From contig JAGWIS010000004.1 of assembly GCA_028866135.1 (NCBI GenBank), positions 1 to 42,897 of the forward strand: a DNA stretch of 42,897 nucleotides, in the 5' to 3' direction. Both the position numbers and the translations under genes were made by a program. Source of the DNA: Patescibacteria group bacterium (lineage in GTDB: Bacteria > Patescibacteriota > Minisyncoccia > Phycocordibacterales > Phycocordibacteraceae). Below are positions 504 to 39,243 of this stretch, in pieces (the first letter of the stretch is position 1; each line of letters starts with the position of its first letter). A model generated the notes under the pieces. It was not told the origin of the DNA, did no database searches, and saw only the letters and a list, made by a program, of their open reading frames with translations.

Positions 504-1463
504 TTACGCGACGCCGATGGCTTTCCTTACCTTTTCCATTTTCGCTTCGCTTATGGCGCGGGCTTCAGCCTTCCCTTTCGCGAGGATCTCGTCGACGATG
601 CTGGGATTGCTTTGGAGCTCTTCATATTTTGCTCGCATGGGCGCGAGATAGCGATCGAGGTCAACGATGAGCATTTCTTTCAGCGTCTTGTAGTTGCCCG
701 CATTACTACCATATATGGTAGTAAGCTCCGCTTCGCTCCGCACGAGCCGGTGGATCCGGTACACGTTCTCGGGGCGTTCGCCGGAAGAATCCGTGACTAT
801 GCTCATCACGCATTTCGCGAGCTCGTCGTGCGAAGCAAAGAGCGGAATCACGTTTCCATAGCTTTTGCTCATCTTCTGGCCGTCGGTGCCAGGGACGACT
901 GCTACATCCGGCATGATGTATGGCTCGGGAAGCGTAAACACGTCTGCTCTGAAGACGCGATTGAATTTCTCTGCGGTATCGCGCGCAATCTCGATGTGCT
1001 GTTTCTGATCTTGCCCCACTGGCACGACCGCCGCGTCGTAGAGCAAAATGTCAGCAGCCATCAGCATCGGGTAGTTGAAGGTCCCGACAGTGATCTCTTT
1101 ATTTTTCGCCTCGGCGTCCTTGAATGCGTGCGCACGCATGAGGTACGGCATGGTGGTGATGGTGTCGAAAATCCAACCGAGCTCGGTGTGCGCCGGCACA
1201 TCCGACTGCTTGAAAAAGACGACCTCTTTCGGGTCGAGGCCGATGGCGAGGTATGCCATCACGAGCTCGCGCGTGCGTTTGCGCATCTCTTCCGCATCCT
1301 GCACGGAGTTCAGTGCGTGATAATCAGCAACGAAAATGAAGCATTTGTATTTTCCCGAGCGAAAAAGGTCGACCTGCTGGCGCATCGCGCCAAAATAATT
1401 ACCGATATGCAGGTCACCGGTCGGCTTCACGGCAGAGACGAGAACGGGCTTCGAATGTGCCAT
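504..1463 (-). CDS. trpS: tryptophan--tRNA ligase
   Basis: SAVKPTGDLHIGNYFGAM (HIGH-like) and KMSKSYGN (KMSKS) motifs; full class I TrpRS-like length. Confidence 0.95.
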   Translation of the reverse strand: MAHSKPVLVSAVKPTGDLHIGNYFGAMRQQVDLFRSGKYKCFIFVADYHALNSVQDAEEMRKRTRELVMAYLAIGLDPKEVVFFKQSDVPAHTELGWIFDTITTMPYLMRAHAFKDAEAKNKEITVGTFNYPMLMAADILLYDAAVVPVGQDQKQHIEIARDTAEKFNRVFRADVFTLPEPYIMPDVAVVPGTDGQKMSKSYGNVIPLFASHDELAKCVMSIVTDSSGERPENVYRIHRLVRSEAELTTIYGSNAGNYKTLKEMLIVDLDRYLAPMRAKYEELQSNPSIVDEILAKGKAEARAISEAKMEKVRKAIGVA

Positions 1464-1648: not shown

Positions 1649-1732
1649 TGCGCCGGGAAGGATTCGAACCTTCGAACGCATGTAGCGGGGCGGTTTACAG
1701 CCGCCATCCTTTAACCACTTGGATACCGACGC
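1649..1732 (-). tRNA. tRNA-Tyr (anticodon GTA), class II long variable arm, CCA not fully encoded
   Basis: Acceptor GCGTCGG/CCGGCGC, anticodon arm GGCGG-CTGTAAA-CCGCC, T-arm GAAGG-TTCGAAT-CCTTC, variable-arm stem CGC/GCG. Confidence 0.9.
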
Positions 1733-2502
1733 GAGAACTTGTCAAATCGACGACGATGCTTATCGTTTGCAGGCGCGATTTCCTTGAAGAATCGCTCTAC
1801 GTCCCTGCGTTTTGTGATGTATACCTTATAAGCACTCGCCTCCGATGCTTTGTATCCTAGCTTTCGAAGTATCTCTTGTAAAGCGAGCAGTAATGGAGCA
1901 GATCTATTTGTAAGAGATATCTGAATGCCGAAACGCAGGTTGTATACAGATCCGTCGGTATCGAAAAAACCGCGCGCAAATGCCTCCATGTATTTCTTAT
2001 CGCTCATGATCCACTTGGGTACTCCCACTTGAGCCGCGACCTTGTTTTCGACGAGCCCCTGTTCCTTCAACCACTTAGCAATCAACGTGGAGCCGATATA
2101 TACATCGCGATATCCAGACTTTTTGACAGAAATCGTCGCTTTGACTTTAAATAATTCCTGCATGAGTTTTTGCACATACTGTACATACGGGAGTTCTTTC
2201 GTTCCTAAAGTAACAATGGTTTGAAAATGCGATATGTGCCCGTCACCGAGCATAATGCCCAAAAATTCCGCTAGTCGAATAGACTGTTTCGGAAGCTGGA
2301 TGTCGTTTCTTCGATTCTGATACCGTAGTTTTTTCTCAGGAGTGGTCTTGATACCGAGTCGACGTATTCGATCAAATACTGTTTGATATGGAATGTTAAG
2401 TTCTTTCCCAATTTCGCCTATCGATTTATTTTGCGTGGCGTACAGAGAATACAGTTCTTTTCTATATATAGCTTCTTCATCTTTCGTCCATCGTCGGGCC
2501 AT
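1711..2502 (-). CDS. HTH + double-motif LAGLIDADG-type homing endonuclease; 3' end overlaps tRNA-Tyr
   Basis: N-terminal HTH-like SIGEIGKELNIPYQTVFDRIRRLGI; LAEFLGIMLGDGHIS and FARGFFDTDGSV LAGLIDADG motifs; stop TAA lies in the tRNA D-loop. Confidence 0.85.
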   Translation of the reverse strand: MARRWTKDEEAIYRKELYSLYATQNKSIGEIGKELNIPYQTVFDRIRRLGIKTTPEKKLRYQNRRNDIQLPKQSIRLAEFLGIMLGDGHISHFQTIVTLGTKELPYVQYVQKLMQELFKVKATISVKKSGYRDVYIGSTLIAKWLKEQGLVENKVAAQVGVPKWIMSDKKYMEAFARGFFDTDGSVYNLRFGIQISLTNRSAPLLLALQEILRKLGYKASEASAYKVYITKRRDVERFFKEIAPANDKHRRRFDKFSRRYPSG

Positions 2503-2563
2503 CTTTTCATTCTAACATTGACTACTCCGATACTACTCACAATATACAAAAACTGCGAATAAG

Positions 2564-3883
2564 TTATTTCAAAACGAGGATGAGGACGCCCTGCCTGCCT
2601 TTGCGTACGAGCGCGTAGCCGTGGGAGAGGTCTCCCTGAAATATCTTCTGATCGGGATTCTCGATGGCCTGTCCGGAGAGCGAGATGCCCTTCCCTTCGA
2701 TGAGCCGGCGAGCGTCTGACTTGGAGGAAGCGAGGCCGCTCGAGACGAGCGCTTCGGTGAGGGAAAATCCATTTTCAATATCTTTTTTCGAGAGCTTTAC
2801 TGACGGGGCTTCGGCAAGCGCCACCGCGAGCGCCTCGCGGGAGAGCTGGTCGAAAGGCGTGGTGCCGAAGAGTGCGTCGGTTGCGGCCGCTGCTTGCGCG
2901 GTGTCGAGCGGGCCGTGGACGATCTCCGTCACGAGACGTGCAAGCGTCTCCTGGGCTTCGCGATCGCCCGGGTTACGGCGATGAAGCTCCATGAGCGCAT
3001 CGATTTCAGCGGGCGGGAGAAAGGTGTAGGTCTTGAGGTATTTTTCGATATTCGCGTCCGGAAGATTTATCCAGAACTGGTAGAAGCGGAATGGCGAAGT
3101 CTTTTTCCGGTCGAGCCAGACGGCGTTCCCTTCCGACTTCCCGAACTTCTTGCCAGCTGCGTCGGTCACGAGCGGCATGCCGAGCGCGTAGACTTGCTTT
3201 CCTAGGCGCTTGCGGATGAGATCGACGCCCGAGAGGATGTTTGTCCACTGATCGGAGCCGCCGACTTGGAGGTCGACTCCGTATTTTTCATGGAGCGTCA
3301 GATAATCGAATGCTTGGAGGAGCGCGTAGGTGAATTCGGTATAGGAAATGCTTTCATCCGGCGTCTCAAGGCGCTTCTTGATGATGTCGCGCTTCACGAG
3401 GTCATTTACTGTAAAGTGCTTGCCGACATCACGCAGAAACGGCAGCAATTTCACTTTCGAGAGCCAGTCGACGTTATCGACCATCTTGAAGGACGAGGTG
3501 CCAAGAATAGTTTTCAGCTGCTTTTGCAGAGCGCGTGTATTTGCGGCAACAGTCTTCTCGTCGAGGAGGACGCGCTCGCCTTTCTCTTTCGGATCGCCTA
3601 TTTGGCCGGTCGCGCCGCCCACGAGAAAGACGAGCTTGTGGCCCGCATTGCCCAGGCGCTTCATCAGGAGGACGACAGCAAGATTGCCGACCTGGATCGA
3701 ATCGCTCGTGGGGTCGATGCCGAGATAGGCGGTCCGAGGAGCCTTCAAAATCTCCTCTGGAGAAGCCGAAGAAAGTTCTATTAGGTCGCGGGCTTTCAGT
3801 TCGTCAGCGAGGCTTGCCCCGTTAGAACCGTGCCGCTCGGAACGATTATTTGCCGCGGATGACGGTATCATATACGGGGACAC
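2564..3883 (-). CDS. tyrS: tyrosine--tRNA ligase (start may be further downstream)
   Basis: YLGIDPTSDSIQVGNL, QVGGSDQWTNI, KKFGKSEGNAVWLD, C-terminal S4-like domain. Confidence 0.95.
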   Translation of the reverse strand: MSPYMIPSSAANNRSERHGSNGASLADELKARDLIELSSASPEEILKAPRTAYLGIDPTSDSIQVGNLAVVLLMKRLGNAGHKLVFLVGGATGQIGDPKEKGERVLLDEKTVAANTRALQKQLKTILGTSSFKMVDNVDWLSKVKLLPFLRDVGKHFTVNDLVKRDIIKKRLETPDESISYTEFTYALLQAFDYLTLHEKYGVDLQVGGSDQWTNILSGVDLIRKRLGKQVYALGMPLVTDAAGKKFGKSEGNAVWLDRKKTSPFRFYQFWINLPDANIEKYLKTYTFLPPAEIDALMELHRRNPGDREAQETLARLVTEIVHGPLDTAQAAAATDALFGTTPFDQLSREALAVALAEAPSVKLSKKDIENGFSLTEALVSSGLASSKSDARRLIEGKGISLSGQAIENPDQKIFQGDLSHGYALVRKGRQGVLILVLK

Positions 3884-38998: not shown

Positions 38999-39124
38999 AA
39001 CCCGCCACCAGGAACCCTTGCGGGTCTACAGGAGTTTCCCCCTGCAACATAGGACATGCCCTGATGACGGGTTTTTCATGTCCTATGATTTCTGACCATG
39101 CCATACGACCCGAAGGTCATATGG
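38999..39124 (-). ncRNA. candidate structured RNA: tandem hairpins
   Basis: Minus-strand CCATATGACC-TTCG-GGTCGTATGG, CATAGGACATG/CATGTCCTATG (11 bp), CAGGGGGAAACTCCTG, ACCCGC/GCGGGT followed by TTTT. Confidence 0.4.
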
Positions 39125-39243
39125 TTTAGGCCACTCACACATAAAGATTAGCACATGATTAAAAGGTACTGAATTGACTTAGGAAAAGATTATAATCGAC
39201 CTTTGGGATTTATGGATTAGATTAAAACGTGTCGTCCGATATT

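Follow-up and report, generated by a model that had tools for sequence, protein, structure and literature searches.

A LAGLIDADG nuclease gene that ends within tRNA-Tyr, and a candidate class of tRNA-anchored homing elements in Patescibacteria

The tyrS-tRNA-Tyr locus and its nuclease gene

The window (the whole stretch of DNA that was analysed, 42,897 nucleotides of contig JAGWIS010000004.1 from a patescibacterial genome) carries on its minus strand, in this order, tyrS, an open reading frame (ORF) of 263 aa, tRNA-Tyr(GTA) and a trpS-like synthetase gene. The features of the locus are the following:

2564..3883, minus strand: tyrS (PF00579, 5.1e-74), which adjoins tRNA-Tyr in many empty relatives
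2517..2529, minus strand: CGGAGTAGTCAAT, a putative scrap of a host-type D-arm, 12/13 match (dinucleotide shuffles)
2509..2514, minus strand: TAGAAT, a possible -10 element 6 nt 5' of the nuclease start codon, judged from its sequence
1711..2502, minus strand: predicted HTH and double-LAGLIDADG homing-endonuclease ORF, 263 aa (Pfam, profile matches, AlphaFold2, Foldseek)
1711..1732, minus strand: overlap of ORF and tRNA, 22 nt, with the TAA stop codon at 1711-1713 (sequence)
1649..1732, minus strand: intact tRNA-Tyr(GTA), the nuclease-linked allele, with rebuilt D-arm, anticodon stem and variable arm (ARAGORN, Rfam, allele comparison)
504..1463, minus strand: trpS-like class I synthetase gene, downstream of the tRNA (ORF, Pfam)

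The original prediction, that the ORF runs 22 nt into a same-strand tRNA-Tyr and stops in its D-loop, was confirmed by ARAGORN, which calls tRNA-Tyr(gta) at 1647-1732 on the minus strand, by the Rfam tRNA model (52.6 bits over 1649-1732, position 1649 being the 3' end of the tRNA) and by the ORF coordinates, which place the TAA at tRNA positions 20-22. The tRNA itself is intact, and the 39 distinct tRNAs read in the host genome (694,721 bases, 97% complete) include no other tRNA-Tyr; an HTH and LAGLIDADG gene is indeed tied to an essential tRNA, present in single copy. The nuclease gene also parts tRNA-Tyr from tyrS, as had been proposed: in many empty sites the two genes lie 28-59 nt apart. 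A scan for promoters and terminators gave signals not clearly beyond those of shuffled sequences. A LOOT RNA (RF03000, 75.7 bits) was noted elsewhere in the window, at 39013-39132 on the minus strand.

The 263-aa ORF is matched by PF14528 (LAGLIDADG_3) in two stretches (2.6e-19), and has weak matches to an N-terminal HTH and to PF14527 (WhiA). Among 23 aligned relatives, the motif-1 acid D87 is invariant and the motif-2 acid D183 is kept in at least 90%, both at catalytic positions. The profile of the nuclease family matches I-Tsp061I (2dch, 1.8e-17) and I-DmoI, and Foldseek matches of the AlphaFold2 model (pLDDT 91.6, well ordered to about residue 257) include 2dch (4.7e-10), I-DmoI (7.7e-7) and also WhiA. 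By its motifs, acids and fold the ORF is a double-motif LAGLIDADG nuclease of the homing type, with predicted cleavage activity. The tail RRYPSG, encoded within the tRNA, is of low confidence and poorly ordered in the model, and thus the overlap contributes nothing obvious to the nuclease fold.

Domestication as a WhiA-like LAGLIDADG transcription factor that regulates the adjacent tRNA or tyrS would account for the HTH domain, the weak PF14527 match and the presence of WhiA among the Foldseek matches. This is a very improbable reading, considering that the active-site acids of LAGLIDADG enzymes are conserved, that the profile match to I-Tsp061I is the better one, and that the genes are sporadic, face empty sites, leave truncated relics and form tRNA-specific clades (see below).

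Other origins were rejected. A spurious ORF was ruled out by the relatives, the conserved acids and the predicted fold. As for phage origin, no relative was confirmed in IMG/VR, the one weak match (29%) being in a phage terminase record. A nuclease encoded by a tRNA intron or group I intron does not fit a tRNA that is continuous, with no Rfam intron family found.

Anchoring of related nucleases to tRNA genes

The window protein retrieves four LAGLIDADG ORFs in its host genome, all upstream of a tRNA on the same strand, and their ends lie at -22 nt (the window copy), -47 nt (Leu(CAG)), +1 nt (Leu(GAG)) and +40 nt (Ser(GGA)) from the tRNA. Of the 101 LAGLIDADG loci in 106 family genomes, 56, spread over 40 genomes, end near the 5' end of a same-strand tRNA, and 32 overlap it; with five loci from outside the family added, the counts are 61 of 106 anchored and 36 overlapping. 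A sample of 286 genomes from the phylum yielded 46 with matches, a few of those from the family, and elsewhere in the phylum 47 of 65 fetched ORFs are anchored to a tRNA (24 overlapping). Control ORFs of at least 180 aa from the same loci end at such a position in only 13 of 316 cases, against which the anchoring in the host genome and family rules out chance overlap. The search of CPR genomes that had been suggested thus shows that the association of LAGLIDADG ORFs with tRNA 5' ends recurs across CPR, and the overlap itself recurs in relatives, for example in the Nomurabacteria locus L035 at -37 nt. The tRNAs concerned are Tyr, Ser, Leu, Asp, Cys, Gln and Phe.

Phylogenetic analysis indicates that nuclease clades correspond to tRNA identity almost one to one. 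On a tree of 91 proteins tRNA identity requires 17 changes, where the minimum is 15 and the shuffled mean 67. The Tyr clade (support 100/99) spans several families, and the window protein is placed in it beside that of L035. About a dozen tRNAs show the architecture of nuclease plus tRNA, each with its own nuclease clade.

Measured from nuclease end to tRNA, the distance lies between -47 and +63 nt in the family set and reaches +80 nt in the phylum sample, with all three reading frames represented. Because distance and frame vary in this way, abutment is the rule and the stop codon within the tRNA a frequent by-product; the part of the original prediction that made the stop a mechanism was not supported, the position not being conserved. 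That mechanism is a regulatory device in which RNase P, cutting at the tRNA 5' end, would strip the nuclease message of its stop codon, so that tRNA maturation and nuclease translation would exclude each other. It would suit the D-loop position of the stop, the arrival of the stop with the nuclease-linked allele (see below), the commonness of overlap (32 of the 56 anchored family loci) and the presence in the host genome of a tmRNA, which could rescue the resulting non-stop message. It is nevertheless improbable, as nearly half of the anchored genes have no overlap, distance and frame vary freely, and a promoter between nuclease and tRNA would decouple the two. Competition with RNase P may still lower nuclease output where the genes overlap.

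Several arrangements of other kinds were noted. Several nuclease genes of the Leu(GAG), Asp and Tyr kinds have at their 3' ends, just 5' of the tRNA, a TTGACAA-like motif, in differing reading frames (1733-1750 in the window). A separate nuclease clade of about 16 genomes is anchored in mirror image, its genes beginning right at the 3' end of tRNA-Lys(TTT) (..GCGCAC/ATG; loci L060, L065, L066, L072, L073, L093, L101 and L112 among others), and the Leu(CAA) loci L062, L305 and L307-L309 resemble this arrangement. Members of another clade (L053, L056, L057, L059, L070, L092) are found some 350-700 nt ahead of tRNA-Ile(GAT), where they probably occupy a candidate 16S rRNA intron. A LAGLIDADG fragment of 91 aa (L125, 2472-2747, in G000:C19), around which the 5.3 kb fetched contain no tRNA, is probably a decayed nuclease copy.

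Empty sites, tRNA alleles and scars

The presence of the nuclease is sporadic, and the comparison with empty tyrS-tRNA-Tyr loci that had been called for found matching empty sites in many relatives. In these relatives without the nuclease gene (HEG-less), tyrS is followed after 28-59 nt by a tRNA-Tyr with the D-arm TGGCGGAGTGGTCAATCGCA or close variants of it; the D-arm of the window tRNA-Tyr is TATCCAAGTGGTTAAAGGAT. Four HEG-linked alleles of the same genus were compared with 22 HEG-less alleles. Mismatch between the two groups, as against mismatch among the HEG-less alleles, is 0.48 versus 0.10 in the D-arm, about 0.5 versus 0.10 in the anticodon stem, 0.50 versus 0.18 in the variable arm and 0.14 versus 0.06 in the T-arm, but 0.01 in both cases in the 5' strand of the acceptor; in the anticodon loop the mismatch between HEG-linked and HEG-less alleles is 0. 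The stems of the HEG-linked tRNA-Tyr are preserved mostly through paired changes.

The rebuilt Tyr D-arm is found in 4 of 4 HEG-linked and 2 of 24 HEG-less genomes (p=7e-4), and a B-type tRNA-Ser(GGA) in 9 of 10 HEG-linked and 2 of 22 HEG-less genomes (p=2e-5), in Fisher tests that ignore relatedness and so treat related genomes as independent samples. For Leu(GAG) there is no clear separation of alleles by nuclease presence (0.21 versus 0.17). The nuclease-linked Ser(GGA) copy of the host genome itself retains an A-type tRNA, which speaks against the homing unit proposed below.

In the reading frame of the window ORF, 14 of 20 HEG-less Tyr alleles have no stop codon anywhere in the tRNA, and all four same-genus HEG-linked alleles carry the D-arm stop; the D-loop stop codon, judged from these sequences, belongs to the nuclease-linked allele. 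The same counts would be expected if the rebuilt D-arm were selected mainly as a supply of stop codons for the nuclease ORF, and not for avoidance of cleavage. Such selection is judged slightly less probable even than the RNase P device, since many of the changed positions lie in the anticodon stem and variable arm and have nothing to do with the stop, and the two HEG-less genomes with a rebuilt D-arm (L170 and L176) have no overlapping LAGLIDADG ORF. The D-arms of L170 and L176 may be traces of a loss, or variation that existed beforehand. Between tyrS and the rebuilt tRNA-Tyr, L170 has a different HTH ORF without a LAGLIDADG Pfam match (2806-3432, in G036), possibly another nuclease family exploiting the same site. 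In L175 (G081), a broken reverse-strand fragment of tRNA-Tyr follows tyrS, beside an intact copy.

The short sequence CGGAGTAGTCAAT in the window matches the empty-type D-arm of tRNA-Tyr at 12 of 13 positions (p=0.0017 by dinucleotide shuffles; p=0.14 against the window's own downstream tRNA), and can be read as a scar of the original, interrupted tRNA-Tyr. A 13/13 match to the host-type D-arm is present in G072 (L171). For Ser(GGA), loci L083 and L085 retain the first 27 nt of the empty-type tRNA. Two copies are present in the bin G034, L229 empty and L083 occupied, and they are 94% identical up to a break exactly after tRNA position 27; this junction is seen on the left side, the empty contig ending just after the tRNA, and the two copies may stem from two strains, as the bin is 5% contaminated. 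Leu(GAG) loci keep sequence from D-loop to anticodon loop directly 5' of the start codon. In tRNA numbering the scars end near position 22 for Tyr, at 27 for Ser(GGA) and near 38 for Leu(GAG). Scars are detectable in a minority of loci, with none in the five Tyr copies tested besides the window and G072. Few matches emerged when scars were sought by comparison with the tRNA lying downstream of each nuclease, and the scars that could be compared with both alleles match the empty-type allele. Beside a rebuilt tRNA in G049 there is a relic of a nuclease gene that lacks the first 125 aa and is 86% identical over the remainder. Scars, empty sites and this relic are the expected stages of a cycle of gain, decay and loss.

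Upstream of tRNA-Ser(GGA), L223 and L244 have short insertions without a nuclease, in which partial tRNA copies precede the full tRNA; the scrap in L244 comes from the other type of allele. In L087, L089 and L090 the host D-arm occurs in inverted form, GCACTAGACCA, near the likely promoter upstream of the Ser(GGA) nuclease. Such inverted D-arms reach p<=0.023 in 3 of 9 Ser(GGA) loci, with a fourth at 0.04, and by analogy with the autorepression of I-TevI a role as operator is possible.

A proposed homing unit and its precedents

The nuclease gene occupies the place where relatives have tyrS directly followed by tRNA-Tyr, and a complete alternative tRNA allele lies downstream of nucleases whose clades are target-specific. 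The original tRNA, to judge from the retained pieces, was interrupted, clearly so for Ser and by the evidence of a scar for Tyr. The reading preferred here, with a probability of roughly two in three, is that ORF and tRNA-Tyr move together as a single homing unit, which attacks the ordinary tRNA gene and brings a probably resistant replacement. The nuclease would cut the ordinary gene within the D-arm or close to it (in the Leu branch, in the anticodon loop); repair from a copy bearing the element would insert the nuclease along with its own tRNA allele; and this linked allele would keep the essential tRNA supplied while escaping cutting. If the scar marks an interrupted original tRNA, a replacement had to come along. 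The 22-nt overlap and the borrowed stop codon would follow from the packing of the gene against its tRNA.

The main rival differs from this reading only in lacking resistance: a homing gene of the ordinary free-standing sort happened to insert upstream of a tRNA, and the flanking tRNA of the donor was passively co-converted, with no role in resistance or rescue. Co-conversion of flanking DNA is normal for free-standing homing genes (PMC2988022), the Leu(GAG) alleles are not separated by nuclease presence, and HEG-linked allele types occur also without the nuclease (L170, L176, L222, L241). This rival is considered unlikely, though the least so of the alternatives, in view of the strong association of allele with nuclease for Tyr and Ser(GGA), of the concentration of Tyr changes in three parts of the tRNA (D-arm, anticodon stem and variable arm), with acceptor and anticodon loop kept constant, and of the scar, which implies that the original tRNA was interrupted and a replacement needed.

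Extended to the phylum, the homing-unit reading would make Patescibacteria hosts to a large class of homing elements anchored to tRNAs, with a separate nuclease clade for each tRNA, acting as natural home-and-rescue drives that cut the ordinary allele of a single-copy essential gene and bring a recoded, cleavage-resistant tRNA, with tRNA alleles turning over by nuclease invasion phylum-wide; the chances of this wider proposal are about even. If true, it would provide a natural bacterial counterpart to engineered gene drives with recoded rescue, would explain sharp tRNA differences between close relatives in reduced genomes, where tRNAs are otherwise conserved, and would mean that CPR lineages undergo homologous recombination with one another often enough for homing to persist. 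The elements would also offer a collection of meganucleases, each specific to a tRNA, whose target and resistant sites are already predicted.

Searches of the open-access literature turned up no description of LAGLIDADG genes anchored to tRNAs in these bacteria. SegB of T4/T6 and other free-standing homing endonucleases of phages likewise adjoin tRNA genes, but SegB is phage-borne, belongs to the GIY-YIG family and has no described replacement tRNA allele (PMC2988022; PMC13096335). Free-standing T4 homing enzymes cut at a distance (PMC2988022). The LAGLIDADG nucleases of CPR rRNA introns, such as I-ShaI, share phylum-level hosts, superfamily and conserved RNA-gene targets with the elements described here; they reside in rRNA insertion sequences and are mostly single-domain (PMC11270868), whereas the tRNA-anchored nuclease has two motifs per chain, no intron and an uninterrupted tRNA. 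The text of the paper on these rRNA-intron nucleases makes no mention of tRNA (PMC11270868). The archaeal double-motif enzymes I-DmoI and I-Tsp061I, which by profile are the nearest relatives of solved structure and which also figure among the best fold matches, are intron-encoded, unlike the Tyr-clade nuclease, which is free-standing and has an N-terminal HTH.

The nearest precedent, by analogy, appears to be the mORFs of fungal mitochondria (Allomyces atp6; Glomus atp6, atp9, cox2 and nad3), in which an endonuclease ORF comes with a replacement C-terminus (PMC3630166). There, too, a homing-type endonuclease (LAGLIDADG in most Glomus cases) is inserted in a host gene, a divergent part of the host gene travels along and restores it, and the displaced native part remains as a relic. 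The combination of a divergent element-linked host gene with a native fragment was found for Ser(GGA) in G034 and for Tyr in the window and G072; for Leu(GAG), alleles are not separated by nuclease presence. A related arrangement is known from fungal mitochondria, and in the open-access literature no report was found for tRNAs or bacteria. While mORFs carry the C-terminal coding end of protein genes, the CPR elements carry tRNAs, and in bacteria; their replacement lies downstream of the nuclease, their scar would be the 5' part of the tRNA, and they comprise many tRNA-specific nuclease clades. Engineered home-and-rescue (HomeR) drives are similar in that a nuclease targets an essential gene and brings a resistant rescue copy (PMC7968924); the tRNA-anchored element differs from them in being natural and bacterial, in having a tRNA as its target and in a rescue role that is presumed.
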